Source: Siphonodentalium dalli
Taxonomy: Eukaryota > Mollusca > Scaphopoda > Gadilida > Siphonodentaliidae
DNA: 64,000 nucleotides
Assembly: GCA_032622095.1 (NCBI GenBank)
Contig: CP136064.1
Location: 127,831,605 to 127,895,604 of the forward strand
Direction: 5' to 3'
A program made the translations under genes and the position numbers. This document shows positions 30,145-54,678 of the stretch, one piece after another. The stretch's first letter is position 1. Each line of letters begins with the position of its first letter. The notes beneath the pieces are model-generated. The model did not search any database. It was not told the DNA's origin and saw only the letters and a program-made list of their open reading frames with translations.

Positions 30145-31599
30145 GGACACAAATACCCATAAGTATCAAATTACGTTGAATTCTATGGAAAGCCGAGGAG
30201 GACATATTGGTTGCTAATTGCTAGACATACGACGCGGTATTTTGAAGGTGTTTCAAACTAGGAGATAGAAGTATTCTGCCTTTCAAATGGTGATGAATTA
30301 TAGTAGTTTATTCAAATTTTATGGCATAAATTGTTATTAAAACCGTATATACTATAAAAAATTAATGACTCGAAAATTAAGTGGGCCTTTAAACAAAGTC
30401 ACAATTGCATTTAGGCTCATCTCATACTCGTCCATTCAGCGATATTCTACTGCGCAGTTTGTTATAGCCTCCAGTATTTATTGAGCGTTATAACCCCAAC
30501 TGTTATAATTCGCCTTTAGCAGGCGTACTCTTGCCTCAGATTATTGAGATATTAGGTCACACATAATCACATTAAATCGCATCGTAACATAGCAATTGTG
30601 TGGGCTCCTTGGCGTGAATATGTAATGAGAAATAAGGTCATACGTAATGACATTAAACTCAAGAAAACCCTCGAAAACAAAACAAAATCACATTTAATGT
30701 TTTACGTTATTTCCTTCATAAAAAGAATCTTCGTGATAATGAACCCTCTCGTTACTTTAGAATATAGAATTAACCTTAAAATAAAAAAAATCTTTGGAAC
30801 ACAGAACCTTCGGAATAACGAACCTTCGGATTGGTGAACCTTCGGAATAGCGAACATTCAGAGAAATTTCGGAATAGTGGACCTTCGGGATAGTGAACCT
30901 TCGGAATAGAGACATGCCCCCCAATATTCATATTATATGCCCAGAGTTCAAAGGTATGGACCCATAAAATTCTAAACTTGGCCCTTAAAATATTGAACTC
31001 CAAATTGGAGCACACACAGAACACCACTTAAGTCAACTGAACCTATGTCATGTCCCAATGCGGGAGGGTCCATATATACCACAACATTCATAGTATATGC
31101 CAAGAATTCAAAGGTATGGGCCCACGTAATGACATAAAATCTCAAGAAAACCAGCGAAAACAAAACAAAATCACATTTAATGTTCTAAGTTAAGTTATTT
31201 CCTCCTGTATCTGTATCGGTGTGCGCGCATGATCAGTTCGGATGTGAGCGCACACTCCATATAAAGAATCTTTGTGAAAATGAACCCTCTCAAATTAGTC
31301 TCAATACTTTAAAATATAGAATTAACCTAAAAATAACAAAAACCTTCGGAATAGAGAACCTTCGGAATAGCGGACCTTCGGGATAGCAAACCTTCATAAT
31401 AGAAGCATGTCCCCACAATTACACCGGTGACGTAAACACATGTGCCAATCTTAGTTGTACTCTCGTAATTATCGGTACGATGAAACGGTGACGGAATCTG
31501 ACGAGGTTTGCCGAATGTACAATCACCCAGTGAATTATCGATCGACCATGCGATATCAAAAAACCAAAAGCTAGAAACACCACACTACGGTGGCGTAAT
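30145..31599. repeat. Y segment 4, diverged end of array 1
   Basis: Same layout as Y1-Y3 but with private differences (acatattggttgctaatt, ataaccccaactgtta, gacatgccccccaat, cactacggtggcg). It ends at GGTGGCGTAAT, directly against the HINE-like element of the first nanos unit. Confidence 0.8.
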
Positions 31600-32946
31600 G
31601 AAAGTGTCAATGACACTGTAGCTCAACTTGGAAAGGGACTAATTTCACGTGTTACAGTCAATGGAGCGATAGAAATGCGGAAATTTGAAATGTCTAAGCA
31701 ATACCAGATTATCAACATGAAGATATATACATGTATATATATAAAGTAAAATCCAAGATGGTTGCTGACAGCCGTATGTTTTTGAATGCAACTAAAAAAC
31801 ATTTGATAGCTTCCATCTAGTAAATCAATATCAAGATTAATATGAAGTTTGATGATGATCGGCTGAGGGCCGGAGTGGACTGTAGGGTGTGCGAAAGGAT
31901 TTAGTCATGCAGAGAGTAAAATCCAAGATGGCTGCCAGCTGACATGTTTTATGGTCGAATGACCCCAAAATGACTCGTTTCCCATTTACGTGTCAATGTT
32001 AACATCCATGATGATCAGACGAAAACTCCGGCCTGTAGCCCGTGCTAATGGATTGAATTTTGAAATCCAAGATGCCGCTGGCGGTCATATTTTTTTGCCG
32101 AATGATCCCAAATTGACTCGTTCCCATCTACATGTCAAGAGCCATGACAAATTTCATAATGATCAGACCAAAGGTACGACTCACTTGTAGCCTGTGCCAA
32201 ATGATTTAGTCGTGCAAAGAGAAAATCCAAGATTGCTGCCAGCGGCCATATTTTATGGCCGAATGACCCCAACATGACTCGTTCCCATTTACATGTCAAT
32301 GTCAACGCCCATGACAAATTTCATAATGATCCGACCAAAGGTATGACCTGGAGCCCGTGCCAAAGGATTTAGTCAGGCGAAGAGTAAAATCCAAGATGGC
32401 TGTGAGCGGCCATGTTTTGTGGCCGAATGACCCCAAAATGACTTGTTCCCATCTACATGTCATTGTTAACATCCATGACACATTTCATTATTATCAGACC
32501 AAAGGTATGACCTGCAGCCCATGCCAAACAATTTAGTCATGCAAAGAGTAAAATACAAGATGGCTGCCGGCGGCCATATTTTATGGCTGATCGACCCCAA
32601 AATTACTCGTTCCCATCTACATGTCAATATTAACATCCATGACAAATTTCATGATGGTCAGACAAACAGTAGGACCTGTATCCCGTGCTAATCGATTGAA
32701 TTTTGAAATCCAAGATGGCCGCTGGCAGCCATTTTTTTTTTCTCGAATGACCCCGAAATGACTCGTTCCCATCTACATGTCAATGTCAACAGCTATGACA
32801 AATTTTATAATGATCCGACCAAAGGTACGACCTGTAGCCCGTGCTAAAGGAAATTGTTGACGAATCACACTCGCACAGATACACGCACGACGGATACCAA
32901 GCCATGACAATAGCTCAAACTCTACAAAGTAAAGTTGAGCTAAAAA
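31600..32946 (+). mobile_element. HINE-like element at the start of nanos unit 1
   Basis: Same ends as the element at 4,504-6,400: the left palindrome AGTGTCAATGACACT plus TAGCTCAAC, and the right hairpin TAGCTCAAACTCTAC / GTAAAGTTGAGCTA. Core repeats of about 150-190 bp all read forward, and each centres on AAGATGGC with an inverted GCCAT. The microsatellite tail is short. Non-autonomous. Confidence 0.8.
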
Positions 32947-35110
32947 TGTTATATTTAATTAAGAAAAGACACACACCGGCAGCGTTCAGACATCGCGTTG
33001 CGAGGGGACTGCACTCTGTTTTGCCGCAGCTTGCGATTTTCGCTGGCGTCATGCCCAGCTTGTTGACCATTGAACACGGGGGAGTAGAGTCTGAGCTGCA
33101 TATAGACCCCTCCCATATGTGGATTTTGTGTGTGATTATGATATATGTGTAGAACTGTATCAGTGCTTCATTTGCCGGTTGTTTGCCATCTGGCTATTGG
33201 GGCTTTCTAGAGTTGTCGGTCATTGAATCCAAGATGGCCGCCGAAACTGAATATCTGACTTGGTAAATTTTAATCAGCAAGTAATCAGGAAGATTGTGAG
33301 GTTATAGCTATTAAGTCGTGCGATATGTCATTATATTACTAATTGAATACACCATATTTATTGGTATGAATAAATTTCATATATTCAAAATGGCCGCCAA
33401 AATGGTCACCGGAAGTGTACAATGACGCTTTTTCAGTAATATTTTCTAGATCACTTTTTGTTGTTTGAAACTGGTTAAGAATTGTTACTTTGTTTTGCAT
33501 TGTTTATATTTTCTGGTCATTGGGGCAATGAAATAAGACATTATTGGTGTCCCTTACGATCCGTCAATAATTTGATTTTTACAGAACGCCAAAATAGCCG
33601 CCAAAATATGGAAAATTGTGAAGATTTCCCCGGTGTACCCTGAAAATCGCTTTGTTGTGGTTGATGAATAAAATTGCCTATTCTACATTACCAACATGTC
33701 TGTTGCACATTGGTTAATTGTTAGTATTGTAACTACTGGCATTGCCATAAATATTGGATTTTACTCTCACAAACTTGACAATCGGCAAAAATTCACTTTC
33801 ATGTTTGGACTATTAAAATGTAACTAACTTTGGTATGAAATGCGTTTATTGTTTTAAACTATTTTAAATGTGTCAAACCAAATTACTCAAGATGGCTTCC
33901 AAAATGTCAACCAACTTGGGTAAAATGTTCATTTTTCACATATATCCGGAACATAATATTATTCTCTGCTGTTCCGAAAAGTTAGCAAACTGTGACTCAC
34001 TTGGTTACTATGCATGTTAGGTCATCAACTGACAACTAAATATTCTACCTGATTGTCTCAGTTCCTTATGAGGGTGACGACCCCCCCCCCCCCTACCTCC
34101 GGAATCCGGCTTAAAACTTACCCCGGCATCCGGAATACTCCATAAAAGAGAGACGGCATCCGGCATACACTTTCTTCTCAAATGATACGAGGAATTAAAT
34201 CGTGCGTGTTAAAACGCAACATGTGGTGCCTAGCTATATTTACCATTTCTAACCGATTCTATTCAATCAATGTAACTTTTCCACTATTCTAGTGTGGTGC
34301 ACTCGGCGTTATACAAACTAACGTAGATTATCAACGTTTTAACCCGTCAAGCAGATGCCAGGTGGAAGTCAACTCTATCGGGGAATATAGCAAACCACAG
34401 GTCACCATTACGATCTATTTGAACACTAATATTATTAGTCACGCTCCCTCATATGGGGCATGACAAATTCATTTTAAAATTGCAATATGGAATTTGACTG
34501 AAAACCTCTTTTGGGATTATGGCCATATTTTGAAAGGAAATTGGCAGACTCGAAACTGAGATGAACCACAATATGTGGCTATTTTGGCCCATTTGGATCA
34601 AAATGGATCAACTTGATACAAAAGCTATGGAGGCCATGGTGGCAGCCAGGTAGTTACTGTATGGTCATAGGTGGTGTGAATAGGAATACAAGGAGTTATT
34701 TTATGGTCACGAATGATGTTAATAGATATACAAGGGGTGGTCATGATTGGGGTGTCCATTGTGAGATGCATGAGATACACGTAGTTGCTGGATGGTCACG
34801 TGTGAGGTGAAGATGTGGTGTGACTGTATGCATGGTTGCATGGTTATGTGTGGATGCACGGGTATACACGATGTGACTGTACATGGTCATCTATATGTTG
34901 TTTATGTATATATGTAGTGATGGCAAACAACCGGCAAATTGAGGGACTGATATAGTTATACAAAGATATCATAACCACAAAAACAATCCGCAAATGGTGG
35001 AGGGGGGGGGGGGGCTATATATGCAGCTAAATCGCACCCAATCAACTATAGCCAATTCCCAAAACTGCTGCTTCAGAACAAGTTAGTGGTTTTTTTTTTA
35101 TTTGCAATAA
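32947..35110. other. AT-rich module downstream of nanos (3' side), unit 1
   Basis: Non-coding. It contains GCACTC-rich sequence near 33,010, several AAGATGGCCGCC or AAAATGGCCGCC motifs, a C run at 34,081-34,093, CCGGAATCCGGC-type short repeats, and an imperfect minisatellite rich in GGTCA and GTGTGA (about 34,610-34,910). A G run lies near 35,000-35,014. The corresponding stretches are 40,386-42,520 and 47,825-49,970. A diverged relative of 33,570-34,560 sits on the other side of nanos at 37,735-38,460. Confidence 0.7.
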
Positions 35111-35142
35111 AACGAGAGATATATAATAAGAGAACGATCACA

Positions 35143-35148
35143 TTTATT
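35143..35148 (-). terminator. Polyadenylation signal of nanos copy 1
   Basis: AATAAA on the minus strand, about 210 bp after the stop codon. The same signal is at 42,571-42,576 and 50,013-50,018 for the other copies. It gives a 3' UTR of a little over 200 nt. Confidence 0.55.
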
Positions 35149-35357
35149 ACTGAAAATATAAACATCATTCATTCATATAACATTGACATAATATATAACA
35201 TTGGTTCCATGCAAGGAATCAGTTCAATCACATGTAGTAAGCACTATACATATATGCACACTGGCAAGCACGGGAACGGATTTGCACTATATTGAATACA
35301 TTTTTGGTGTACGGTTGAGACGTACAAGTACGAGTCACTTCAGTCTCAGTAATAGAA

Positions 35358-35939
35358 TCACATGAAGGATCGGGTATTTCCGCCGTAGTTTTGAGGACAG
35401 TACTTGATTGTGTGAGAATCGTCGCCTGTCTTCCTGCAGATAGGACAAACGTACCGTCTCAGAATGGGACACGTGGTTTTGCCGGCCGAGTTCTTCAGCA
35501 CGTGGCTGGAGTACACTTCTACGTCTTCGCCGTTGTTTCTGCAGAACACGCACAGAGGCTTTCTTGTCTTCTTGTTCTTAGACGCCACATATTCCTGGAG
35601 AACGTCACCGGAACACTGAACGTCACTTTCGTCGAGCGAGAGAAGTGTTGCGTCGAGGGTTTTGTAACTTCGTGCGGCTGACTGATACACGTCGAAATCA
35701 TCGAGGTCGGTTTCAATGCCGTTGCGACGAAATTCGTCGTATGCGTTGCATCTTGCGTTGTCGAGCTCCAGCAGATCGTTGGTGTGGTCGATGGTAGTAG
35801 GCATCGTTGCTGATATGTCCTTGAGAATTGTGAACGGACTGTCAATGACGGTTGTCTTGCTTTCAGCTCTTGGAACGTAATTTCCGAATGGGTTCAAACT
35901 AACGAACATTTCTTCGGTATCACCAAGGAAGAATTCCAT
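35358..35939 (-). CDS. nanos: Nanos homolog, copy 1
   Basis: A 193-residue protein, single exon. Residues 130-181 form the Nanos-type double CCHC zinc finger with exact spacing: C130-X2-C133-X12-H146-X10-C157, then C165-X2-C168-X7-H176-X4-C181. In known Nanos proteins this domain binds RNA with Pumilio, and the N-terminus recruits the CCR4-NOT deadenylase to silence mRNAs in germ-line and stem cells. Here residues 11-22 ([12 protein letters not shown]) might be the NOT1-binding motif, which is a guess. The rest of the N-terminal half is acidic and unconserved. I start at 35,939. The frame is open to 36,191, but the longer version would cross a TATA-like box and initiator at 36,023-36,055. The gene is richer in GC than its surroundings. 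It differs from copy 3 at two residues (G6 and V118, against D and A). Confidence 0.92.
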
Positions 35940-36022
35940 TGTAAAAACTGTTGAGTAAAACTGAGTCTGGATACTGAGTGTGATGGTACTAGTTATTGTA
36001 TGGTAATGGTTGTGAGAGCGAA

Positions 36023-36055
36023 TGACATTTGCAGCCTGTACCGGTCTATTTATTA
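36023..36055 (-). promoter_or_regulatory. Core promoter of nanos copy 1
   Basis: On the minus strand TAATAAATAGACCGG (36,055-36,041) lies about 30 bp upstream of TGTCATTCG, an initiator-like TCA(+1)TT with the A at 36,023. This spacing is right for a TATA/Inr promoter and gives a 5' UTR of about 83 nt before the ATG at 35,939. Identical elements occur in the other two copies. Confidence 0.55.
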
Positions 36056-36248
36056 CACTCTGGGCGTCCCCCAGTTGGTGCATGGGGGTTGACACCTGGT
36101 CAACTCCATTGGGCTTCGTTGAAAACCTTTCAGGATATTCTAGCCAATCGCGTTTCAGCGTTGTGAAAACATATAGTAAGCTAGTTACCACCGCAATTGA
36201 CTAATTTGAATGTTGTTTTATCGTCGCTGAACATCACAGGAACCAAAA

Positions 36249-36317
36249 ATGTCTCCATCGACGCCGAAAGTCGGTAAGAACATTATCAACGGATGGTACA
36301 ATGGATGGTACATCTAA
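36249..36317 (+). other. Short divergent ORF with a splice-donor-like site
   Basis: ATG in a good context (ccaaaaATG) opens 22 codons beginning MSPSTPKVGKN, with AAGTCGGTAAGA at codons 7-10 resembling an exon/donor boundary. It lies head-to-head with nanos, 226 bp from its predicted start site. It is present unchanged at 43,680-43,748 and 51,106-51,174. It could be the first coding exon of a lost or distant gene, or chance. Confidence 0.2.
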
Positions 36318-37189
36318 TTATACACAGTTGCACACACATATCTAATATTGTTGCAATATAAAATATAAAAAAGACGTGATTATGAATATATTATTCGAAA
36401 AAACATATTTAACAAATAAAAAAAAATAAAAAAACCTCATTGTGTATGAGCAGTTTGATAACAAAGCACATGACACTGAGATGATATATATATATGTCTC
36501 TCATAATTATGCATGTACGTCTTTGCTGTTCCATTTGATTTATTACACTTTTGTGAATTTTTCCAACTGTGAACTTCAAATTAGTGGAGTAGATTAAGTC
36601 CAAATTTCAAAGCAATTGTTCAATTTGTAACTAAAGCATGAAAATTTGCACATATGTACATGTTCACATACTAATTGATATTGGATATGGAGCCACGCTG
36701 AAATATAACGTTAACACCTCTTTTAAGGGGTTTTCCGAATTTAAAGAGCGTTTCGTGATTATATAATTTAATAAATGTCGCAATTAATCGTACCATGAAA
36801 TACGTGATTTAAAATTCGGCATATACATTAAGTATGATTATGCGATATATAATGTCACATTTTTGGGGTAAAATTGTAACTCCCATCAAGATGGCCGTAA
36901 AAATGGTAGCCGTAAGTGGATTTATTTTTTCACTAATATCTTAATGTAAACATATTTTATTCCAATCATAATAACATATATACATTTGACAAAGTGTTGA
37001 CAATAAAAACAGAATAGGATAAATGATTGTTGGATTGGAAAAGGGATTAAACAACAAGCCTAAGTTTGCTCCCTTTTTTTTTCGCGCCCACTCTTCATTA
37101 AGTGTAGAGGGGGGTCAGACGGGAAGGAATGGAAATATTATAATAATAATAATAATAATAGTAATGATGATGTTATGATAGTCAGGAAG

Positions 37190-37230
<41 letters not shown>

Positions 37231-37734
37231 GAGAGAGACAGAAGGAGTGAAAGAAGACGGAAAGAGAGAGAGAGAAAAGAACATTAAATTTAACAGTGAA
37301 AAAAATGCGTTAAATTTCCATGAACACACGGCAGTTGTAGCACTCCTCCTCTCCCTTTCTCCCTCTCTTTCTCCCCCTCACTCACTCTGTATCTCGCTCT
37401 GTCTCTCTGACCTCAGCAGATTCATAAATTTTCTACGATTATTAAAATCATCATTATCATGTTATACATATCCTGTCATTCATATCATGTACTCTTCAAC
37501 TTGGCCTCTTACCCTCTGCTCTTCTTATATAGTCAATGTCTCTTTCTTTTCTGATGAGATAACTCAACATAAGTGATGACTCGATTGTTGTTAAATCCTC
37601 TTCAACCTCATCTATTCTAAATTATGTCATAAATAAACATTTGTAAAAAAAATATTATATATGTTCTTTGAGGGTAGAATTAAATATTGTTTAAACCAGA
37701 CCTGTGCAAACTAAGTGAGGCATACCATGACTAA
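36318..37734. other. AT-rich non-coding part of unit 1 with microsatellites
   Basis: No gene seen. Contains a TAA repeat (about 37,138-37,160), an AT run passing into GA (about 37,188-37,280) and a CT-rich tract (about 37,345-37,410). Lengths differ between units. Corresponding stretches are 43,749-45,165 and 51,175-52,600. Confidence 0.7.
37138..37280. repeat. TAA, AT and GA microsatellites, unit 1
   Basis: A run of TAA units is followed by about 40 bp of AT interrupted once by AC, then GA repeats. Counterparts at about 44,579-44,710 and 51,996-52,135 have different repeat numbers, so these are good markers to tell the units apart. Confidence 0.9.
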
Positions 37735-38460
37735 TTAATATTTCAACTCAATGGAACCAAAATTGTCACTTGGTCTGAAAATGGCTGCCAAGATGGCGAC
37801 CAAACATGGGAAATGGTAAATATTGACTCAGCATGCCATGTAATCGCTTACAAGTTGTGGTCGATGAATAAAATTGGCTATTCTGTCTTATATACTTTAA
37901 ATTCTAACATTTCTGATGCACACTGGTTAAGTGTTAACAATGTGACCACTGAAATTACCAGAATTATTGGATTTTTCTATCACAAACTTAACATAAAAAT
38001 TGGCAAAAATTTACTTTTCAGGTTTTGGCCATTTATTCAAGTAAATGGAAGTATCTTTGGTATCAGAGATGTTTATTGTTTTAATCTGTCTTAAATGCGT
38101 CACACTAATGTGTTTTTAGACAAAATTACTCAAGGTGGCTTCCAAAATGGCAACCAATTTGGTAAAACAAAAAAAGATGATTTTTTTTACATATATCCCG
38201 AACATTATTCTGTTCCCAAGAGTTAGAAAATTATAACTCACTTGTTTATTACCATGTTATGCTTAATCCAATGACTACTACATGTTTCATTCTCTGAGGC
38301 ATGACAAATTCCTTTTAAATGATATACTGCAGTATGGAATTTTGCCAAAAATGTCTTCTGGGACTCTGGCCATATTTTTTAACGGAAATAGGCAGAACGT
38401 CTAAACGAAATTGAGTGAAACCATATTATGTGGCTACTCTCGACAATTAGCATGAACATC
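37735..38460. repeat. Diverged second copy of the 33.6-34.6 kb module
   Basis: Shares many phrases in the same order and orientation with 33,570-34,560: GATGAATAAAATTG, a stretch around CACAAACTT, ATTACTCAAG followed by TGGCTTCCAAAATG, ACATATATCC, GGCATGACAAATTC. Identity looks like that of an old duplication. nanos is therefore bracketed by direct repeats. Also present in units 2 (about 45,165-45,900) and 3 (about 52,600-53,330). Confidence 0.7.
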
Positions 38461-38479
38461 AACTTAATATATGGTGTAT

Positions 38480-38817
38480 GTTTTTTTGCCGAATAACCCT
38501 AAAATGTCAAGATCCATGACGAATTTCATAATGATCCTATCAAAGGTACGTCTTGTAGCCTTTGCCAAAGGATTTAGTCATGCAAAGAGTAAAATCCAAG
38601 ATTGCTGCCATACTTTATGGCCGAATGACCCCAACATGACTCGTTTCCATCTACATGTCAATGTCAACGCCCATGACAAATTTCATAATGATCCAACCAA
38701 AGGTATGACCTGTAGCCCGTGCCAAAGGATTTAGTCAGGCAAAGAGTAAAATCCAAGATGGCTGCCAGCGGCCATGTTTTATGGCCGAATGACCCCAAAA
38801 TGAATTGTTCCCATCTG
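38480..38817 (+). repeat. Partial HINE-like repeats at the end of unit 1
   Basis: Two core repeats of the HINE family (each with AAGATTGCTGCC or AAGATGGCTGCC and a GCCGAATGACCCCAA phrase), without the terminal hairpin. They place HINE sequence at both ends of the nanos unit. Counterparts lie at about 45,905-46,256 and 53,335-53,688. Confidence 0.75.
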
Positions 38818-39042
38818 AGATCAGCTGAGATCAGTCTCCTACCCAGGATTAACCGCTGCTCGCGCCCATATGTTGCCCGCGCCCACACGTATTGCGAAGA
38901 AATGTCTCATTTATGTATTTGAGACGTTTGTAGGTTACAATTCATTCTGCATTATTCTGAGAAGCTGAACAGCCCAAATTCATTTGAAAATTGTCTAGAT
39001 CAAGTTAGAATGAATTACAACTGACAAAACGCATCAATAAAC
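38818..39042. repeat. 225-bp dispersed repeat closing unit 1
   Basis: Starts near tgagatcagtctcc and ends caataaac, directly before the next HINE-like start. Homologous to 14,766-14,986 in array 1. Confidence 0.75.
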
Positions 39043-42000
39043 GAAAGTGTCAATGACACTGTAGCTCAACGTGGAAAGGGACTAATTTCATGTGTTACAG
39101 TCAATGAAGCGATAGAAATGCGGAAAGTTGAAATGTCTAAGTAATATCAGATTATCAACATGAAGATATATACATGTATATATATAAAGTAAAATCCAAG
39201 ATGGTTGCTGACAGCCGTATGTTTTTGAATTCAACTAAAAAACATTTGATAGCTTCCATCTAGTAAATCAATATCAAGATTAATATGAAGTTTGATGATG
39301 ATCGGCTGAGGGGAGTGGACTGTAGGGTGTGCAAAAGGATTTAGTCATGCAGAGAGTAAAATCCAAGAGGGCTGCCAGCTGACATGTTTTATGGTCGAAT
39401 GACCCCAAAATGACTCGTTTCACATTTACGTGTCAATGTTAACATCCATGATGATCAGACGAAAACTCCGGCCTGTAGCCCGTGCTAATGGATTGAATTT
39501 TGAAATCCAAGATGCCGCTGCCGGCCAAATTTTTTTGCCGAATGATCCCAAATTGACTCGTTCCCATCTACATGTCAAGAGCCATGACAAATTTCATAAT
39601 GATCAGACCAAAGGTACGACTCACTTGTAGCCTGTGCCAAATGATTTAGTCGTGCAAAGAGAAAATCCAAGATTGCTGCCAGCGGCCATATTTTATGGCC
39701 GAATGACCCCAACATGACTCGTTCCCATTTACATGTCAATATCAACGCCCATGACAAATTTCATAATGATCCGACCAAAGGTATGACCTGGAGCCCGTGC
39801 CAAAGGATTTAGTCAGGCGAAGAGTAAAATCCAAGATGGCTGTGAGCGGCCATGTTTTGTGGCCGAATGACCCCAAAATGACTTGTTCCCATCTACATGT
39901 CATTGTTAACATCCATGACACATTTCATTATTATCAGACCAAAGGTATGACCTGCAGCCCATGCCAAACAATTTAGTCATGCAAAGAGTAAAATACAAGA
40001 TGGCTGCCGGCGGCCATATTTTATGGCTGATCGACCCCAAAATTACTCGTTCCCATCTACATGTCAATATTAACATCCATGACAAATTTCATGATGGTCA
40101 GACAAACAGTAGGACCTGTATCCCGTGCTAATCGATTGAATTTTGAAATCCAAGATGGCCGCTGGCAGCCATTTTTTTTTCTCGAATGACCCCAAAATGA
40201 CTCGTTCCCATCTACATGTCAATGTCAACAGCTATGACAAATTTTATAATGATCCGACCAAAGGTACGACCTGTAGCCCGTGCTAAAGGAAATTGTTGAC
40301 GAATCACACTCGCACAGATACACGCACGACGGATACCAAGCCATGACAATAGCTCAAACTCTACAAAGTAAAGTTGAGCTAAAAATGTTATATTTAATTA
40401 AGAAAAGACACACACCGGCAGCGTTCAGACATCGCGTTGCGAGGGGACTGCACTCTGGTTTGCCGCAGCTTGCGATTTTCGCTGGCGTCATGCCCAGCTT
40501 GTTGACCATTGAGCACGGGGGAGTAGAGTCTGAGCTGCATATAGACCCCTCCCATATGTGGATTTTGTGTGTGATTATGATATATGTGTAGAACTGTATC
40601 AGTGCTTCATTTGCCGGTTGTTTGCCATCTGGCTATTGGGGCTTTCTAGAATTGTCGGTCATTGAATCCAAGATGGCCGCCGAAACTGAATATCTGACTT
40701 GGTAAATTTTAATCAGCAAGTAATCAGGAAGATTGTGAGGTTATAGCTATTAAGTCGTGCGATATGTCATTATATTACTAATTGAATACACCATATTTAT
40801 TGGTATGAATAAATTTCATATATTCAAAATGGCCGCCAAAATGGTCACCGGAAGTGTACAATGACGCTTTTTCAGTAATATTTTCTAGATCACTTTTTGT
40901 TGTTTGAAACTGGTTAAGAATTGTTACTTTGTTTTGCATTGTTTATATTTTCTGGTCATTGGGGCAATGAAATAAGACATTCTTGGTGTCCCTTACGATC
41001 CGTCAATAATTTGATTTTTACAGAACGCCAAAATAGCCGCCAAAATATGGAAAATTGTGAAGATTTCCCCGGTGTACCCTGCAAATCGCTTTGTTGTGGT
41101 TGATGAATAAAATTGGCTATTCTACATTACCAACATGTCTGTTGCACATTGGTTAATTGTTAGTATTGTAACTACTGGCATTGCCATAAATATTGGATTT
41201 TACTCTCACAAACTTGACAATCGGCAAAAATTCACTTTCATGTTTGGACTATTAAAATGTAACTAACTTTGGTATGAAATGTGTTTATTGTTTTGAACTA
41301 TTTTAAATGTGTCAAATCAAATTACTCAAGATGGCTTCCAAAATGTCAACCAACTTGGGTAAAATGTTCATTTTTTACATATATCCGGAACATAATATTA
41401 TTCTCTGCTGTTCCGAAAAGTTAGCAAACTGTGACTCACTTGGTTACTTTGCATGTTAGGTCATCAACTGACAACTAAATATTCTACCTAATTGTCTCAG
41501 TTCCTTATGAGTGTGACGACCCCCCCCCCCCCCCACCTCCGGAATCCGGCTTAAAACTTACCCCGGTATCCGGAATACTCCATAAAAGAGAGACGGCATC
41601 CGGCATACACTTTCTTCTCAAATGATACGAGGAATTAAATCGTGCGTGTTAAAACGCAACATGTGGTGCCTAGCTATATTTACCATTTCTAACCGATTCT
41701 ATTCAATCAATGTAACTTTTCCACTATTCTAGTGTGGTGCACTCGGCGTTATACAAACTAACGTAGATTATCAACGTTTTAACCCGTCAAGCAGATGCCA
41801 GGTGGAAGTCAACTCAATCGGGGAATATAGCAAACCACAGGTCACCATTACGATCTATTTGAACACTAATATTATTAGTCACCCTCCCTCATATGGGGCA
41901 TGACAAATTCATTTTAAAATTGCAATATGGAATTTGACTGAAAACCTCTTTTGGGATTATGGCCATATTTTGAAAGTAAATTGGCAGACTCGAAACTGAG

Positions 42001-42785
42001 ATGAACCACAATATGTGGCTATTTTGGCCCATTTGGATCAAAATGGATCAACTTGATACAAGAGCTATGGAGGCCATGGTGGCAGCCATGTAGTTACTGT
42101 ATGGTCATAGGTGGTGTGAATAGGAATACAAGGAGTTATTTTATGGTCACGAATGATGTTAATAGATATACAAGGGGTGGTCATGATTGGGGTGTCCATT
42201 GTGAGATGCATGAGATACACGTAGTTGCTGGATGGTCATGTGTGAGGTGAAGATGTGGTGTGACTGTATGCATGGTTGCATGGTTATGTGTGGATGCACG
42301 GGTATACACGATGTGACTGTACATGGTCATCTATATGTTGTTTATGTATATATGTAGTGATGGCAAACAACCGGCAAATTGAGGGACTGATATAGTTATA
42401 CAAGGATATCATAACCACAAAAAAAATCCGCAAATGGTGGAGGGGGGCTATATATGCAGCTAAATCGCACCCAATCAACTATAGCCAATTCCCAAAACTG
42501 CTGCTTCAGAACAAGTTTTTTTTTTGGATTTGCAATAAAACGAGAGATATATAATAAGAGAAGGATCACATTTATTACTGAAAATATAAACATCATTCAT
42601 TCATATAACATTGACATAATATATAACATTGGTTCCATGCAAGGAATCAGTTCAATCACATGTAGTAAGCACTATACATATATGCACACTGGCAAGCACG
42701 GGAACGGATTTGCACTATATTGAATACATTTTTGGTGTACGATTGAGACGTACAAGTACGAGTCACTTCAGTCTCAGTAATAGAA

Positions 42786-43370
42786 TCACATGAAGGATCG
42801 GGTATTTCCGCCGTAGTTTTGAGGACAGTACTTGATTGTGTGAGAATCGTCGCCTGTCTTCCTGCAGATAGGACAAACGTACCGTCTCAGAATGGGACAC
42901 GTGGTTTTGCCGGCCGAGTTCTTCAGCACGTGGCTGGAGTACACTTCTACGTCTTCGCCGTTGTTTCTGCAGAACACGCACAGAGGCTTTCTTGTCTTCT
43001 TGTTCTTAGACGCCGCATATTCCTGGAGAACGTCACCGGAACACTGAACGTCACTTTCGTCGAGCGAGAGAAGTGTTGCGTCGAGGGTTTTGTAACTTCG
43101 TGCGGCTGACTGATACATGTCGAAATCATCGAGGTCGGTTTCAATGCCGTTGCGACGAAATTCGTCGTATGCGTTGCATCTTGCGTTGTCGAGCTCCAGC
43201 AGATCGTTGGTGTGGTCGATGGTAGTAGGCATCGTTGCTGATATGTCCTTGAGAATTGTGAACGGACTGTCAATGACGGTTATTGTCTTGCTTTCAGCTC
43301 TTGGAACGTAATTTCCGAATGGGTTCAAACTAACGAACATTTCTTGGGTATCATCAAGGAAGAATTCCAT
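42786..43370 (-). CDS. nanos: Nanos homolog, copy 2
   Basis: 194 residues, one more than the other copies, because of a 3-bp insertion that adds an isoleucine after T29. Compared with copy 3 it also has Q instead of E at residue 9 and M instead of V at the residue before YQSAAR. The double zinc finger and C-terminus are identical to copy 1, and all eight metal ligands are present. The core promoter (TATA-like box 43,472-43,486, initiator A at 43,454) and the poly(A) signal are intact, so nothing visible disables the gene. Start chosen as for copy 1. Confidence 0.92.
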
Positions 43371-43453
43371 TGTAAAAACTGTTGAGTAAAACTGAGTCTG
43401 GATACTGAATGTGATGGTACTGGTTATCGTATGGTAATGGTTGTGAGAGCGAA

Positions 43454-43486
43454 TGACATTTGCAGCATGTACCGGTCTATTTATTA
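43454..43486 (-). promoter_or_regulatory. Core promoter of nanos copy 2
   Basis: Same TATA-like box and initiator-like motif as copy 1, with identical spacing. Confidence 0.5.
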
Positions 43487-44630
43487 CACTCTGGGCGTCC
43501 CCCAGTTGGTGCATGGGGGTTGACACCTGGTCAACTCCATTGGGCTTCGTTGAAAACCTTTCAGGATATTCTAGACAATCGCGTATCAGCGTTGTGAAAA
43601 CATATAGTAAGCTAGTTACCACCGCAATTGACTAATTTGAATGTTGTTTTATCGTCGCTGAACATCACAGGAACCAAAAATGTCTCCATCGACGCCGAAA
43701 GTCGGTAAGAACATTATCAACGGATGGTACAATGGATGGTACATCTAATTATACACAGTTGCACACACATATCTAATATTGTTGCAATATAAAATATAAA
43801 AAAGACGTGATTATGAATATATTATTCGAAAAAACATATTTAACAAATAAAAAAAAATAAAAAAACCTCATTGTGTATGAGCAGTTTGATAACAAAGCAC
43901 ATGACACTGAGATGATATATATATGTCTCTCATAATTATGCATGTACGTCTTTGCTGTTCCATTTGATTTATTACACTTTTGTGATTTTTTCCAACTGTG
44001 AACTTCAAATTAGTGGAGTAGATTAAGTCCAAATTTCAAAGCAATTGTTCAATTTGTAACTAAAGCATGAAAATTTGCACATATGTACATGTTCACATAC
44101 TAATTGATATTGGATATGGAGCCACGCTGAAATATAACGTTAACACCTCTTTTAAGGGGTTTTCCGAATTTAAAGAGCGTTTCGTGATTATATAATTTAT
44201 TAAATGTCGCAATTAATCGTACCATGAAATACGTGATTTAAAATTCGGCATATACATTAAGTATGATTATGCGATATATAATGTCACATTTTTGGGGTAA
44301 AATTGTAACTCCCATCAAGATGGCCGTAAAAATGGTAGCCGTAAGTGGATTTTTTTTCCCACTAATATCTTAATGTAAACATATTTTATTCCAATCATAA
44401 TAACATATATACATTTGACAAAGTGTTGACAATAAAAACAGAATAGGATAAATGATTGTTGGATTGGAAAAGGGATTACACAACAAGCCCAAGGGCTTTT
44501 GTTAAGTTTGCTCCCTTTTTTTTCGCGCCCACTCTTCATTAAGTGTAGAGGGGGGTCAGACGGGAAGGAATGGAAATATTATAATAATAATAATAATAAT
44601 ACTAATGATGATGTTATGATAGACAGGAAG

Positions 44631-44673
<43 letters not shown>

Positions 44674-47600
44674 AGGAGTGAAAGAAGACGGAAAGAGAGA
44701 GAGAGAGATAAAAGAACATTAAATTTAACAGTGAAAAAAATGCGTTAAATTTTCATGAACACACGGCAGTTGTAGCACTCCTCCTCTCCCTTTCTCCCTC
44801 TCTTTCTCCCCCTCACCCACTCTGTATCTCGCTCTGTCTCTCTGACCTCAGCAGATTCATAAATTTTCTACGATTATTAAAATCATCATTATCATGTTAT
44901 ACATATCCTGTCATTCATATCACGTACTCTTCAACTTGGCCTCTTACCCTCTGCTCTTCTTATATAGTCAATGTCTTTTTCTTTTCTGATGAGATAACTC
45001 AACATAAGTGATGACTCGATTGTTGTTAAATCCTCTTCAACCTCATCTATTCTAAATTATGTCATAAATAAACATTTGTAAAAAAAATATTATATATGTT
45101 CTTTGAGGGTAGAATTAAACCAGACCTGTGCAAACTAAGTGAGGCATACCATGACTAATTAATATTTCAACTCAATGGAACCAAAATTGTCACTTGGTCT
45201 GAAAATGGCTGCCAAGATGGCGACCAAACATGGGAAATGGTAAATATTGACTCAGCATGCCATGTAATCGCTTACAAGTTGTGGTCGATGAATAAAATTG
45301 GCTATTCTGTCTTATATACTTTAAATTATAACATTTCTGATGCACACTGGTTAAGTGTTAACAATGTGACCACTGAAATTACCAGAATTATTGGATTTTT
45401 CTATCACAAACTTAACATAAAAATTGGCAAAAATTAACTTTTCAGGTTTTGGCCATTTATTCAAGTAAATGGAAGTATCTTTGGTATCAGAGATGTTTAT
45501 TGTTTTAATCTGTCTTAAATGCGTCACACGAATGTGTTTTTAGACAAAATTACTCAAGGTGGCTTCCAAAATGGCAACCAATTTGGTAAAACAAAAAAAA
45601 GATGATTTTTTTTACATATATCCCGAACATTATTCTGTTCCCAAGAGTTAGAAAATTATAACTCACTTGTTTATTACCATGTTATGCTTAATCCAATGAC
45701 TACTACATGTTTCATTCTCTGAGGCATGACAAAATTCCTTTTAAATGATATACTGCAGTATGGAATTTTGCCAAAAATGTCTTCTGGGACTCTTGCCATA
45801 TTTTTGAACGGAAATAGGCAGAACGTCTAAACGAAATTGAGTGAAACCATATTATGTGGCTACTCTCGACAATTAGCATGAACATCAACTTAATATATGG
45901 TGTATTGTTTTTGCCGAATAACCCTAAAATGTCAATGTCAAGATCCATGACGAATTTCATAATGATCCTATCAAAGGTACGTCTTGTAGCCTTTGCCAAA
46001 GGATTTAGTCATGCAAAGAGTAAAATCCAAGATTGCTGCCATGCTTTATGGCCGAATGACCCCAACATGACTCGTTTCCATCTACATGTCAATGTCAACG
46101 CCCATGACAAATTTCATAATGATCCAACCAAAGGTATGACCTGTAGCCCGTGCCAAAGGATTTAGTCAGGCAAAGAGTAAAATCCAAGATGGCTGCCAGC
46201 CTGCCAGCGGCCATGTTTTTTGGCCGAATGACCCCAAAATGAATTGTTCCCATCTGAGATCAGCTGAGATCAGTCTCCTACCCAGGATTAACCGCTGCCC
46301 GCGCCCATATGTTGCCCGCGCCCACACGTATTGCGAAGAAATGTCTCATTTATGTATTTGATACGTTTGTAGGTTACAATTCATTCTGCATTATTCTGAG
46401 AAGCTGAACAGCCCAAATTCATTTGAAAATTGTCTAGATCAAGTTAGAATGAATTACAACTGACAAAACGCATCAATAAACGAAAGTGTCAATGACACTG
46501 TAGCTCAACTTGGAAAGGGACTAATTTCATGTGTTACAGTCAATGGAGCGATAGAAATGCGGAAAGTTGAAATGTCTAAGTAATATCAGATTATCAACAT
46601 GAAGATATATACATGTATAAATATAAAGTAAAATCCAAGATGGTTGCTGACAGCCGTATGTTTTTGAATGCAACTAAAAAACATTTGGTAGCTTCCATCT
46701 AGTAAATCAATATCAAGATTAATATGAAGTTTGATGATGATCGGCTGAGGGGAGTGGACTGTAGGGTGTGCGAAAGGATTTAGTCATGCAGAGAGTAAAA
46801 TCCAAGATGGCTGCCAGCTGACATGTTTTATGGTCGAATGACCCCAAAATGACTCGTTTCCAATTTACGTGTCAATGTTAACATCCATGATGATCAGACG
46901 AAAACTCCGGCCTGTAGCCCGTGCTAATGGATTGAATTTTGAAATCCAAGATGCCGCTGGCGGCCATATTTTTTTGCCGAATGATCCCAAATTGACTCGT
47001 TCCCATCTACATGTCAAGAGCCATGACAAATTTCATAATGATCAGACCAAAGGTACGACTCACTTGTAGCCTGTGCCAAATGATTTAGTCGTGCAAAGAG
47101 AAAATCCAAGATTGCTGCCAGCGGCCATATTTTATGGCCGAATGACCCCAACGTGACTAGTTCCCATTTACATGTCAATGTCAACGCCCATGACAAATTT
47201 CATAATGATCCGACCAAAGGTATGACCTGGAGCCCGTGCCAAAGGATTTAGTCAGGCGAAGAGTAAAATCCAAGATGGCTGTGAGCGGCCATGTTTTGTG
47301 GCCGAATGACCCCAAAATGACTTGTTCCCATCTACATGTCATTGTTAACATCCATGACACATTTCATTATTATCAGACCAAAGGTATGACCTGCAGCCCA
47401 TGCCAAACAATTTAGTCATGCAAAGAGTAAAATACAAGATGGCTGCCGGCGGCCATATTTTATGGCTGATCGACCCCAAAATTACTCGTTCCCATCTACA
47501 TGTCAATATTAACATCCATGACAAATTTCATGATGGTCAGACAAACAGTAGGACCTGTATCCCGTGCTAATCGATTGAATTTTGAAATCCATGATGGCAG

Positions 47601-50214
47601 CTGGCAGCCATTTTTTTTTCTCGAATGACCCCAAAATGACTCGTTCCCATCTACATGTCAATGTCAACAGCTATGACAAATTTTATAATGATCCGACCAA
47701 AGGTACGACCTGTAGCCCGTGCTAAAGGAAATTGTTGACGAATCACACTCGCACAGATACACGCACGACGGATACCAAGCCATGACAATAGCTCAAACTC
47801 TACAAAGTAAAGTTGAGCTAAAAATGTTATATTTAATTAAGAAAAGACACACACCGGCAGCGTTCAGACATCGCGTTGCGAGGGGACTGCACTCTGTTTT
47901 GCCGCAGCTTGCGATTTTCGCTGGCGTCATGCCCAGCTTGTTGACCATTGAACACGGGGGAGTAGAGTCTGAGCTGCATATAGACCCCTCCCATATGTGG
48001 ATTTTGTGTGTGATTATGATATATGTGTAGAACTGTATCAGTGCTTCATTTGCCGGTTGTTTGCCATCTGGCTATTGGGGCTTTCTAGAGTTGTCGGTCA
48101 TTGAATCCAAGATGGCCGCCGAAACTGAATATCTGACTTGGTAAATTTTAATCAGCAAGTAATCAGGAAGATTGTGAGGTTATAGCTATTAAGTCGTGCG
48201 ATATGTCATTATATTACTAATTGGATACACCATATTTATTGGTATGAATAAATTTCATATATTCAAAATGGCCGCCAAAATGGTCACCGGAAGTGTACAA
48301 TGACGCTTTTTCAGTAATATTTTCTAGATCATTTTTTGTTGTTTGAAACTGGTTAAGAATTGTTACTTTGTTTTGCATTGTTTATATTTTCTGGTCATTG
48401 GGGCAATGAAATAAGACATTCTTGGTGTCCCTTACGATCCGTCAATAATTTGATGTTTACAGAACGCCAAAATAGCCGCCAAAATATGGAAAATTGTGAA
48501 GATTTCCCCGGTGTACCCTGCAAATCGCTTTGTTGTGGTTGATGAATAACATTGGCTATTCTACATTACCAACATGTCTGTTGCACATTGGTTAATTGTT
48601 AGTATTGTAACTACTGGCATTGCCATAAATATTGGATTTTACTCTCACAAACTTGACAATCGGCAAAAATTCACTTTCATGTTTGGACTATTAAAATGTA
48701 ACTAACTTTGGTATGAAATGTGTTTATTGTTTTGAACTATTTTAAATGTGTCAAACCAAATTACTCAAGATGGCTTCCAAAATGTCAACCAACTTGGGTA
48801 AAATGTTCATTTTTCACATATATCCGGAACATAATATTATTCTCTGCTGTTCCGAAAAGTTAGCAAACTGTGACTCACTTGGTTACTATACATGTTAGGT
48901 CATCAACTGACAACTAAATATTCTACCTGATTGTCTCAGTTCCTTATGAGGGTGACGACCCCCCCCCCTACCTCCGGAATCCGGCTTAAAACTTACCCCG
49001 GCATCCGGAATACTCCATAAAAGAGAGACGGCATCCGGCATACACTTTCTTCTCAAATGATACGAGGAATTAAATCGTGCGTGTTAAAACGCAACATGTG
49101 GTGCCTAGCTATATTTACCATTTCTAACCGATTCTATTCAATCAATGTAACTTTTCCACTATTCTAGTGTGGTGCACTCGGCGTTATACAAACTAACGTA
49201 GATTATCAACGTTTTAACCCGTCAAGCAGATGCCAGGTGGAAGTCAACTCTATCGGGGAATATAGCAAACCACAGGTCATCATTACGATCTATTTGAACA
49301 CTAATATTATTAGTCACCCTCCCTCATATGGGGCATGACAAATTCATTTTAAAATTGCAATATGGAATTTGGCTGAAAACCTCTTTTGGGATTATGGCCA
49401 TATTTTGAAAGGAAATTGGCAGACTCGAAACTGAGATGAACCACAATATGTGGCTATTTTGGCCCATTTGGATCAAAATGGATCAACTTGATACAAGAGC
49501 TATGGAGGCCATGGTGGCAGCCAGGTAGTTACTGTATGGTCATAGGTGGTGTGAATAGGAATACAAGGAGTTATTTTATGGTCACGAATGATGTTAATAG
49601 ATATACAAGGGGTGGTCATGATTGGGGTGTCCATTGTGAGATGCATGAGATACACGTAGTTGCTGGATGGTCATGTGTGAGGTGAAGATGTGGTGTGACT
49701 GTATGCATGGTTGCATGGTTATGTGTGGATGCACGGGTATACACGATGTGACTGTACATGGTCATCTATATGTTGTTTATGTATATATGTAGTGATGGCA
49801 AACAACCGGCAAATTGAGGGACTGATATAGTTATACAAGGATATCATAACCACACAAAAAAATCCGCAAATGGTGGAGGGGGGCTATATATGCAGCTAAA
49901 TCGCACCCAATCAACTATAGCCAATTCCCAAAACTGCTGCTTCAGAACAAGTTAGTGTTTTTTTTTTGGATTTGCAATAAAACGAGAGATATATAATAAG
50001 AGAACGATCACATTTATTACTGAAAATATAAACATCATTCATTCATATAACATTGACATAATATATAACATTGGTTCCATGCAAGGAATCAGTTCAATCA
50101 CATGTAGTAAGCACTATACATATATGCACACTGGCAAGCACGGGAACGGATTTGCACTATATTGAATACATTTTTGGTGTACAAGTACGAGTCACTTCAG
50201 TCTCAGTAATAGAA

Positions 50215-50796
50215 TCACATGAAGGATCGGGTATTTCCGCCGTAGTTTTGAGGACAGTACTTGATTGTGTGAGAATCGTCGCCTGTCTTCCTGCAGATAG
50301 GACAAACGTACCGTCTCAGAATGGGACACGTGGTTTTGCCGGCCGAGTTCTTCAGCACGTGGCTGGAGTACACTTCTACGTCTTCGCCGTTGTTTCTGCA
50401 GAACACGCACAGAGGCTTTCTTGTCTTCTTGTTCTTAGACGCCGCATATTCCTGGAGAACGTCACCGGAACACTGAACGTCACTTTCGTCGAGCGAGAGA
50501 AGTGTTGCGTCGAGGGTTTTGTAACTTCGTGCGGCTGACTGATACACGTCGAAATCATCGAGGTCGGTTTCAATGCCGTTGCGACGAAATTCGTCGTATG
50601 CGTTGCATCTTGCGTTGTCGAGCTCCAGCAGATCGTTGGTGTGGTCGATGGTAGTAGGCATCGTTGCTGATATGTCCTTGAGAATTGTGAACGGACTGTC
50701 AATGACGGTTGTCTTGCTTTCAGCTCTTGGAACGTAATTTCCGAATGGGTTCAAACTAACGAACATTTCTTCGGTATCATCAAGGAAGAATTCCAT
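50215..50796 (-). CDS. nanos: Nanos homolog, copy 3
   Basis: 193 residues, with D6, E9, V at the residue before YQSAAR and A118. At every site where copies 1 and 2 differ from each other it agrees with one of them, so it is the best stand-in for the ancestral version. Zinc finger identical to the other copies. TATA-like box at 50,898-50,912, initiator A at 50,880, poly(A) signal at 50,013-50,018. No visible damage. Confidence 0.92.
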
Positions 50797-50879
50797 TGTA
50801 AAAACTGTTGAGTAAAACTGAGTCTGGATACTGAATGTGATGGTACTAGTTATCGTATGGTAATGGTTGTGAGAGCGAA

Positions 50880-50912
50880 TGACATTTGCAGCATGTACCG
50901 GTCTATTTATTA
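50880..50912 (-). promoter_or_regulatory. Core promoter of nanos copy 3
   Basis: Same TATA-like box and initiator-like motif as the other copies, with the same spacing. Confidence 0.5.
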
Positions 50913-52050
50913 CACTCTGGGCGTCCCCCAGTTGGTGCATGGGGGTTGACACCTGGTCAACTCCATTGGGCTTCGTTGAAAACCTTTCAGGATATTCTAG
51001 CCAATCGCGTATCAGCGTTGTGAAAACATATAGTAAGCTAGTTACCACCGCAATTGACTAGTTTGAATGTTGTTTTATCGTCGCTGAACATCACAGGAAC
51101 CAAAAATGTCTCCATCGACGCCGAAAGTCGGTAAGAACATTATCAACGGATGGTACAATGGATGGTACATCTAATTATACACAGTTGCACACACATATCT
51201 AATATTGTTGCAATATAAAATATAAAAAAGACGTGATTATGAATATATTATTCGAAAAAACATATTTAACAAATACAAAAAAATAAAAAACCTCATTGTG
51301 TATGCGCAGTTTGATAACAAAGCACATGACACTGAGATGATATATATATGTCTCTCATAATTATGCATGTACGTCTTTGCTGTTCCATTTGATTTATTAC
51401 ACTTTTGTGAATTTTTCCAACTGTGAACTTCAAATTAGTGGAGTAGATTAAGTCCAAATTTCAAAGCAATTGTTCAATTTGTAACTAAAGCATGAAAATT
51501 TGCACATATGTACATGTTCACATACTAATTGATATTGGATATGGAGCCACGCTTAAATATAACACCTCTTTTAAGGGGTTTTCCGAATTTAAAGAGCGTT
51601 TCGTGATTATATAATTTATTAAATGTCGCAATTAATCGTACCATGAAATACGTGATTTAAAATTCGGCATATACATTAAGAATGATTATGCGATATATAA
51701 TGTCACATTTTTGGGGTAAAATTGTAACTCCCATCAAGATGGCCGTAAAAATGGTAGCCGTAAGTGGATTTTTTTTTTCACTAATATCTTAATGTAAACA
51801 TATTTTATTCCAATCATAATAACATATATACATTTGACAAAGTGTTGACAATAAAAACAGAATAGGATAAATGATTGTTGGATTGGAAAAGGGATTACAC
51901 AACAAGCCCAAGGGCTTTTGTTAAGTTTGCTCCCTTTTTTTTTCGCGCCCACTCTTCATTAAGTGTAGAGGGGGGTCAGACGGGAAGGAATGGAAATATA
52001 ATAATAATAATAATAATAATAGTAATGATGATGTTATGATAGACAGGAAG

Positions 52051-52085
<35 letters not shown>

Positions 52086-54678
52086 GAGAGAGAGAGAAGG
52101 AGTGAAAGAAGACGGAAAGAGAGAGAGAGAGAAAAGAACATTAAATTTAACAGTGAAAAAAATGCGTTAAATTTTCATGAACACACGGCAGTTGTAGCAC
52201 TCCTCCTCTCCCTTTCTCCCTCTCTTCCCCCCTCACCCACTCTGTCTCTCGCTCTGTCTCTCTAACCTCAGCAGATTCATAAATTTTCTACGATTATTAA
52301 AATCATCATTATCATGTTATACATATCCTGTCATTCATATCATGTACTCTTCAACTTGGCCTCTTACCCTCTGCTCTTCTTATATAGTCAATGTCTTTTT
52401 CTTTTCTGATGAGATAACTCAACATAAGTGATGACTCGATTGTTGTTAAATCCTCTTCAACCTCATCTATTCTAAATTATGTCATAAATAAACATTTGTA
52501 AAAAAAATATTATATATGTTCTTTGAGGGTAGAATTAAATATTGTTTAAACCAGACCTGTGCAAACTAAGTGAGGCATACCATGACTAATTAATATTTCA
52601 ACTCAATGGAACCAAAATTGTCACTTGGTCTGAAAATGGCTGCCAAGATGGCGACCAAACATGGGAAATGGTAAATATTGACTCAGCATGCCATGTAATC
52701 GCTTACAAGTTGTGGTCGATGAATAAAATTGGCTATTCTGTCTTATATACTTTAAATTCTAACATTTCTGATGCACACTGGTTAAGTGTTAACAATGTGA
52801 CCACTGAAATTACCAGAATTATTGGATTTTTCTATCACAAACTTAACATAAAAATTGGCAAAAATTAACTTTTCAGGTTTTGGCCATTTATTCAAGTAAA
52901 TGGAAGTATCTTTGGTATCAGAGATGTTTATTGTTTTAATCTGTCTTAAATGCGTCACACGAATGTGTTTTTAGACAAAATTACTCAAGGTGGCTTCCAA
53001 AATGGCAACCAATTTGGTAAAACCAAAAAAGATGATTTTTTTTACATATATCCCGAACATTATTCTGTTCCCAAGAGTTAGAAAATTATAACTCACTTGT
53101 TTATTACCATGTTATGCTTAATCCAATAACTACTACATGTTTCATTCTCTGAGGCATGACAAATTCCTTTTAAATGATATACTGCAGTATGGAATTTTGC
53201 CAAAAATGTCTTCTGGGACTCTGGCCATATTTTTGAACGGAAATAGGCAGAACGTCTAAACGAAATTGAGTGAAACCATATTATGTGGCTACTCTCGACA
53301 ATTAGCATGAACATCAACTTAATATATGGTGTATGTTTTTTTGCCGAATAACCCTAAAATGTCAATGTCAAGATCCATGACGAATTTCATAATGATCCTA
53401 TCAAAGGTACGTCTTGTAGCCTTTGCCAAAGGATTTAGTCATGCAAAGAGTAAAATCCAAGATTGCTGCCATGCTTTATGGCCGAATGACCCCAACATGA
53501 CTCGTTTCCATCTACATGTCAATGTCAACGCCCATGACAAATTTCATAATGATCCAACCAAAGGTATGACCTGTAGCCCGTGCCAAAGGATTTAGTCAGG
53601 CAAAGAGTAAAATCCAAGATGGCTGCCAGCGGCCATGTTTTATGGCCGAATGACCCCATGCAAAATGAATTGTTCCCATCTGAGATCAGCTGAGATCAGT
53701 CTCCTACCCAGGATTAACCGCTGCCCGCGCCCATATGTTGCCCGCGCCCACACGTATTGCGAAGAAATGTCTCATTTATGTATTTGAGACGTTTGTAGGT
53801 TACAATTCATTCTGCATTATTCTGAGAAGCTGAACAGACAAATTCCTTTGAAAATTGTCTAGATCAAGTTAGAATGAATTACAACTGACAAAACGCATCA
53901 ATAAACGAAAGTGTCAATGACACTGTAGCTCAACTTGGAAAGGGACTAATTTCATGTGTTACAGTCAATGGAGCGATAGAAATGCGGAAAGTTGAAATGT
54001 CTAAGTAATATCAGATTATCAACATGAAGATATATACATGTATATATATAAAGTAAAATCCAAGATGGTTGCTGACAGCTATGTTTTCGAATGCAATTAA
54101 AAAAACATTTGATAGCTTCCATCTAGTAGATAAATATCAAGATTAATATGAAGTTTGGTGATGATCGGCTGAGGGGAGTGGACTGTAGGGTGTGCGAAAG
54201 GATTTAGTCATGCAAAGAGTAAAATCAAAGATGGCTGCCAGCTGACATGTTTTATGGTCGAATGACCCCAAAATGACTCATTTCCAATTTACGTGTCAAT
54301 GTTAACATCCATGATGATCAGACGAAAACTCCGGCCTGTAACCCGTGCTAATGGATTGGTGTAAACAATATTTTGGATTGAATTTTGAAATCCAAGATGC
54401 CGCTGCCGGCCATATTTTTTTGCCGAATGATCCCAAAATGACTCGTTCCCATCTACATGTCAAGAGCCATGACAAATTTCATAATGATCCGATCAAAGGT
54501 ACGACTTATAGCCTGTGCCAAAGGATTTAGTCATGCAAAGAGAAAATCCAAGATTGCTGCCAGCGGCCATGTTTTATGGCCGAATGACACCAACATGAAT
54601 CGTTCCCATCTACATGTCAATGTCAACGCCCATGACAAATTTCATAATGATCCGACCAAAGGTATGACCTGTAGCCCG

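Follow-up and report, generated by a model that had tools for sequence, protein, structure and literature searches.

Several large tandem arrays of nanos-type genes in the genome of the scaphopod Siphonodentalium dalli

The genome of the scaphopod mollusk Siphonodentalium dalli contains at least 256 places encoding Nanos fingers, among which eight nanos families (A to H) can be discerned, three of them (A, C and E) amplified into large arrays. Nanos is usually regarded as a protector of germ cells that is sensitive to dosage and kept at low copy number. The analysis set out from a window, i.e., the whole stretch of 64,000 nucleotides studied here (C4:127831605-127895604, contig CP136064.1 of assembly GCA_032622095.1, which comprises 2.23 Gb in nine contigs).

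Results

The nanos array in the window

Three intact single-exon nanos genes are located on the minus strand of the window, one per head-to-tail unit of 7.43 kb (31597-53903). The original prediction of three near-identical, intact tandem nanos genes, each with a promoter-like element and a poly(A) signal, was confirmed by the open reading frames, by a Pfam profile search in which PF05741 covers all 54 positions in each window copy (E value 5.1e-25) and by megablast, according to which units 1-3 are 97.6-97.8% identical. The finger spacing that had been read from the letters, C-x2-C-x12-H-x10-C and C-x2-C-x7-H-x4-C, is present in all three window copies, and both copy-specific variants, an additional codon in copy 2 and V118 in copy 1, were recovered. 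The promoter-like element is the TATA-like sequence AATAAATAG at -115 from the ATG, and the AATAAA hexamer lies 196-209 bases past the stop codon across the three copies. The ATG triplets at 35939, 43370 and 50796 are the likely start codons. The features of array A within the window are the following:

31597-39039, no strand assigned: tandem unit 1 (megablast)
35143-35148, minus strand: AATAAA poly(A)-signal-like hexamer of copy 1, with a second AATAAA at 35097-35102
35358-35939, minus strand: nanos coding sequence of copy 1, 193 amino acids from the in-frame ATG at 35939 (open reading frame and PF05741)
36046-36054, minus strand: TATA-like AATAAATAG of copy 1, -115 from the ATG
39040-46478, no strand assigned: tandem unit 2 (megablast)
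42571-42576, minus strand: AATAAA poly(A)-signal-like hexamer of copy 2
42786-43370, minus strand: nanos coding sequence of copy 2, 194 amino acids with one extra codon, ATG at 43370 (open reading frame and PF05741)
43477-43485, minus strand: TATA-like AATAAATAG of copy 2, -115 from the ATG
46479-53903, no strand assigned: tandem unit 3 (megablast)
50013-50018, minus strand: AATAAA poly(A)-signal-like hexamer of copy 3
50215-50796, minus strand: nanos coding sequence of copy 3, 193 amino acids, ATG at 50796 (open reading frame and PF05741)
50903-50911, minus strand: TATA-like AATAAATAG of copy 3, -115 from the ATG
53904-54678, no strand assigned: start of unit 4, with homology again at 55805-56434 and 61882-63999

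Such a three-unit nanos arrangement cannot be explained by chance. With regard to the proposed recent local triplication, recency, tandem order, intact frames and nanos identity stand, while the number does not: the local array holds 18 copies. "Three" is incomplete because a fourth unit begins at 53904, the nanos copy of which is situated just beyond the window (C4:127896061-127896639). This unit is interrupted by other DNA, as homology resumes only in the two segments listed above. Substitutions among the three window units amount to 0.85-1.05%, and to 0.35-0.70% in the coding sequences, gap-adjacent columns being excluded. Gene conversion focused on the coding sequence was considered, as divergence was higher in the flank than in the coding sequence for five of six flanks at first comparison, and was rejected for the three window units once the exclusion of gap-adjacent columns had brought the difference within noise. 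Neither tRNA genes nor Rfam matches at the gathering score were found in the window. The predicted protein structure reached a mean pLDDT of 57.7 and a pTM of 0.26, with blocks above 70 confined to the finger region.

A further tandem array with units of 6.12 kb and 99.9% identity occupies window positions 11771-31599 and directly adjoins nanos array A. It contains 130-bp and 16-bp repeats and is devoid of a nanos gene.

Eight nanos families

Searching the genome with PF05741 yielded 349 candidates, of which 150 were scored; every one of these 150 surpassed the curated cut-off. The list grew with three protein queries, each with 150 scored among 293-296 candidates. Counted as distinct places over the profile and the three protein queries, with broken and truncated copies included, the figure of at least 256 is a lower bound. 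It is distributed as follows, all numbers applying to the matches listed:

Array E, 155 places: C1:129.37-129.92 Mb, one strand, at least 155 copies, unit 2.99 kb
Array C, 54 places: C1:103.26-103.39 Mb, one strand, unit 2.52 kb
Array A (that of the window), 18 places: C4:127.87-128.15 Mb, 17 full-length copies and one frameshifted copy (L007)
Family B, 7 places: six at C4:88.8-92.7 Mb, one on C3
Family D, 6 places: C4:249.7-250.5 Mb
Family F, 4 places: C5:18.5-18.8 Mb, one broken
Family G, 4 places: two at C5:23.7 Mb, two at C5:249.1-249.4 Mb
A', 2 places: C6
C', 2 places: C1:97.1 Mb
E', 2 places: C2, both broken
Family H, 1 place: C2
Degraded G-type pseudogene, 1 place: C4:124.83 Mb, finger cysteines lost

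The count for array E combines 150 copies from a protein query with five found only by the other searches; by arithmetic, its span offers room for about 183 units of 2.99 kb. Phylogenetic analysis of the proteins (68 rows, 67 different sequences) placed every family in a clade of its own, the stems measuring 0.42-2.3 changes per column and the tips about 0.005. The deep joins of the tree are uncertain, since the bootstrap is not fully settled and long branches meet, as the program warned. Long-stemmed separate clades with near-zero depth inside the arrays indicate that the large arrays are independent, recent and derived from distinct old paralogues. Among viral contigs, 34 stretches fit a pattern and none of these encodes a relative.

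Zinc fingers, RNA contacts and interaction motifs

Family A matches the solved Nanos structures PDB 3ALR and 5KL1, both at 3e-16 in a sequence search, and family E matches Drosophila Nanos (5KL1) at 2e-19 in an alignment that extends into the Pumilio-contacting tail. The double CCHC finger and the RNA-contact residues are features that the genes described here have in common with the Nanos family. The double CCHC spacing is exact in 76 of the 80 sampled sequences, each of the remaining four having lost one ligand. In Drosophila, the RNA-contact residues F321, N325, Y352, T366, K368 and Y369 have been mutated, as stated in the available part of PMC4995099. All six are present in families A (19/19), B (7/7) and D (6/6) and in 17 of 19 C sequences, the other two carrying N325I. 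Families E and F (N325S) and H (K368T) retain five, and family G retains four (K368G, Y369H).

The NOT1-interacting motif F..W.DY..L is reported as conserved in vertebrates and some invertebrates in the accessible text of PMC4003280. It is not essential for membership in the Nanos family because only some invertebrate Nanos proteins carry it. The best-fitting segment agrees with the motif in four of five positions in C, G and H, the tryptophan occurring only in G among these, and in one to three of five positions in A, B, D, E and F, counts to which no chance baseline attaches. As judged from these matches, the NOT1-binding motif appears degraded or unrecognizable in five of the eight families (A, B, D, E and F), which would set them apart from the known Nanos family. 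Low-copy family G thus combines the best NOT1 motif with changed RNA contacts, the large arrays A and E represent the opposite, and in the large array C both RNA contacts and NOT1 motif are nearly whole.

The C-terminal tail contacts Pumilio via I376 and M378 in Drosophila, and this contact diverges outside Diptera (PMC4995099, available part). Both residues of the I-x-M tail occur in 21 of 22 E and in 2/2 F sequences, the isoleucine alone occurs in C, neither is found in A, B, G and H, and none of the D sequences has both. In addition, a central motif F..NG...(D/E/N)(L/F), followed by (D/E).D one to three residues on, is present in 74 of 76 non-G sequences, the exceptions being one C and one D sequence, and in none of the four G sequences. 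This extra motif, common to seven of the eight families, constitutes another difference from the known Nanos family.

Long-term constraint and variation within arrays

Among 28 paralogue pairs analyzed for dN/dS, 14 exhibit dS values of 0.1-0.9, all of them within families A, B, C or D, and in all 14 dN/dS ranges from 0.19 to 0.35. Families A-D are under long-term purifying selection. The other 14 pairs are identical, too close or near saturation. Family E lacks a suitably diverged partner, and long-term constraint was measured for A-D only. Among the pairs that are too close, L020/L022 and window copy 3/L002 gave dN/dS values of 2.73 and 1.67, respectively, on very few changes. Positive selection in the C6 pair L020/L022 was discarded, 10 nonsynonymous vs. 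one synonymous change being too few for a conclusion.

Variation within the arrays was assessed in 17 of 18 A copies (L007 omitted), 16 of 54 C copies and 22 of at least 155 E copies. C and E copies were picked to span the arrays, and the E set deliberately included low scorers and two known carriers of stop codons, so that nonsense variants are overrepresented in it. The numbers of nonsynonymous/synonymous/nonsense variants were 22/6/0 in array A (neutral expectation 20.1/7.1/0.9), 14/4/0 in array C (13.7/3.5/0.8) and 40/15/2 in array E (40.8/13.9/2.2). The original prediction had taken intactness as a sign of function, and this did not hold up in the samples from the three arrays: intact frames mostly reflect youth, because the counts match neutrality. 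A zinc ligand is lost in 4 of the 55 sampled copies, so that, together with the neutral fit of the variants, single array copies look dispensable. An internal TGA was observed in 6 of 150 scored E copies. Individual copies are without detectable constraint, although families A-D have been constrained over longer time, and the copies in the arrays appear too recent and too redundant for their presence to demonstrate that every one is important.

Upstream regions and neighboring repeats

By eye, a TATA-like element was recognized upstream of the ATG, at about -80 to -130, in representatives of every family, the weakest being that of G1. B copies residing on different contigs have conserved upstream blocks in common. 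The presence of TATA-like boxes across the families and of these blocks in the B copies speaks for joint copying of promoter and gene. For the B copies L018 and L021, homology to L039 stops near -370 and +120, and the copied stretch includes the conserved upstream blocks and the TATA-like box; inspection of these two copies by eye for a poly(A) tract or a target duplication as signs of retroposition revealed none.

A transposon common to the arrays was entertained as cause of the amplification, as a segment to the left of array E (L086:6124-6763) is 78% identical to window positions 30281-30921, and was rejected. The latter positions, beside array A, belong to a 641-bp repeat with 1392 candidates genome-wide, so that the coincidence between E and A means little. 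All 40 scored candidates are 100% identical, and the repeat is probably a mobile element of very recent origin.

Amplification among other regulators

In its degree of amplification, nanos far exceeds the other regulator families, seven having been searched in all. The Pumilio PUF domain matched six times, always in a single locus (150 of 221 candidates scored), whereas NOT1 gave four exon matches at one locus (12/12 scored) and Piwi/Argonaute 16 matches at four loci (24/24 scored). The 53 bHLH matches (102/102 scored) included no large array. The 62 forkhead matches (70/70 scored) include one divergent subfamily, mostly single open frames of 400-425 amino acids, in two tandem clusters, and a divergent homeodomain cluster was recorded as well:

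C4:194.32-194.69 Mb: forkhead cluster 1, 17 copies
C5:93.75-93.82 Mb: forkhead cluster 2, seven copies and one partial copy
C1:189.99-190.29 Mb: divergent homeodomain cluster, at least 13 copies (150 of 505 candidates scored)

Since divergent forkhead and homeobox subfamilies are clustered too, nanos is not the sole amplified regulator but one of a few lineage-specific ones.

Discussion

A reasonably probable explanation is that a diversified group of Nanos-type RNA-binding proteins was amplified repeatedly, in the service of dosage or of intragenomic competition, this purpose being our interpretation of the sequences. Diverged paralogues (families A-H) exist, of which A-D were kept by long-term purifying selection. 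Three families multiplied independently and recently with their own TATA-type promoters, giving rise to arrays of 18 (A), 54 (C) and at least 155 (E) copies. The genome has several such tandem arrays of single-exon nanos genes, and the window covers one of them at its left end. The products may be Nanos-type RNA-binding repressors, and the arrays would raise the Nanos dose, probably in the germ line or early embryo. Dosage of such repressors in germ line or embryo would be the simplest purpose and competition with canonical Nanos a bolder one: A and E proteins may function as altered Nanos or as its competitors instead of adding to canonical Nanos, because most or all RNA contacts are kept and the NOT1 motif is unrecognizable. 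A far-reaching version, distinctly unlikely in our view, would hold that RNA-binding Nanos variants with a lost or changed CCR4-NOT motif were amplified independently to tens to hundreds of copies, antagonizing low-copy, motif-bearing Nanos, in parallel with divergent forkhead and homeobox genes of the same early or germline program.

Alternatively, unequal exchange may amplify random segments in a satellite-like manner, carrying compact single-exon genes along, so that the arrays would be neutral and mostly silent. The neutral appearance of the within-array variants agrees with this, as do the internal TGA codons in E copies (6 of 150 scored), the frameshift in array A copy L007 and the clustering of divergent forkhead and homeobox subfamilies, and the explanation stays alive because the nanos-free 6.12-kb segment beside array A is itself tandemly amplified at 99.9% identity. 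Hitchhiking is nevertheless rather unlikely given that amplification recurred, three times on a large and several times on a small scale, in separate nanos families, that bHLH, PUF (150 of 221 candidates scored), NOT1 and Piwi are without amplification, and that the paralogues of A-D are constrained.

In a conflict within the genome comparable to that of mouse Slx/Sly, array Nanos variants would vie among themselves or with the canonical protein for RNA, Pumilio or CCR4-NOT. Five of eight families without recognizable NOT1 motif yet with five to six of six RNA contacts (counts lacking a chance baseline) would fit this, as would the restriction of G, whose motif includes the tryptophan, to four copies among the matches listed, and the single state of NOT1 and PUM (150 of 221 candidates scored for the latter). 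We deem such a conflict very unlikely, as the dN/dS values of the diverged paralogues, all below 0.4, bear no mark of diversifying selection and family C is amplified despite its near-complete motif. False duplications or unpurged haplotypes could also swell copy number, all the more since some marine invertebrates have a heterozygosity of about 1%, which the unit divergence of about 1% resembles. Such an assembly artefact is extremely improbable, however: at least 155 and 54 copies lie on one strand with regular spacing, coding sequences are distinct in 19 of 22 sampled E, 14 of 16 C and 16 of 17 A copies, and the three arrays reside on two contigs with differing unit lengths, other members being found on four further contigs.

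A genome with at least 256 Nanos-finger places, the majority in young arrays and many apparently devoid of a NOT1 motif, would demonstrate that the germ-cell regulator Nanos is open to amplification of the kind known from immune or sex-conflict genes, and S. dalli would offer a natural system for the effects of Nanos dosage and of RNA binding without recruitment of CCR4-NOT. Nanos genes elsewhere are reported in one to four copies per animal vs. at least 256 places here. According to the parts available of the respective papers, two nanos genes are present in cnidarians (PMC11328910), one in the annelid Alitta virens (PMC8871563) and four in grouper (PMC5412271). Lineage-specific nanos duplication exists in these low-copy sets too, but copies are about 60-250 times fewer and tandem arrays are unmentioned in the same parts. 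Among the matches listed from full-text literature on nanos copy number, mostly outside subscription journals, such an expansion was absent. Slx/Slxl1 and Sly of mice are co-amplified, sex-linked spermatid chromatin factors with shown conflict, as described in the accessible portion of PMC7743899. The nanos arrays would resemble them in the large amplification of a germ-cell regulator and in competing variants with different co-repressor recruitment; they differ in that the protein family is unrelated and in being known from sequence alone.

Additional observations

Two open reading frames in the window (7130-7624 and 7700-8245) gave no match in the Pfam search; by eye, the region 7130-8245 presumably represents a degraded reverse-transcribing element of the DIRS type. 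A 164-bp tandem repeat is present in both orientations at 4681-6300, 32063-32848, 39503-40287, 46942-47726 and 55805-56305, i.e., inside each nanos unit and elsewhere in the window; we take this repeat and the 130-bp repeat to resemble molluscan repeats. The haemocyanin profile PF14830, applied without a positive control, found nothing. On C7 (77.3-79.1 Mb), about eleven homeodomain matches among those listed form a row that, by its arrangement, seems compatible with a bilaterian Hox cluster.
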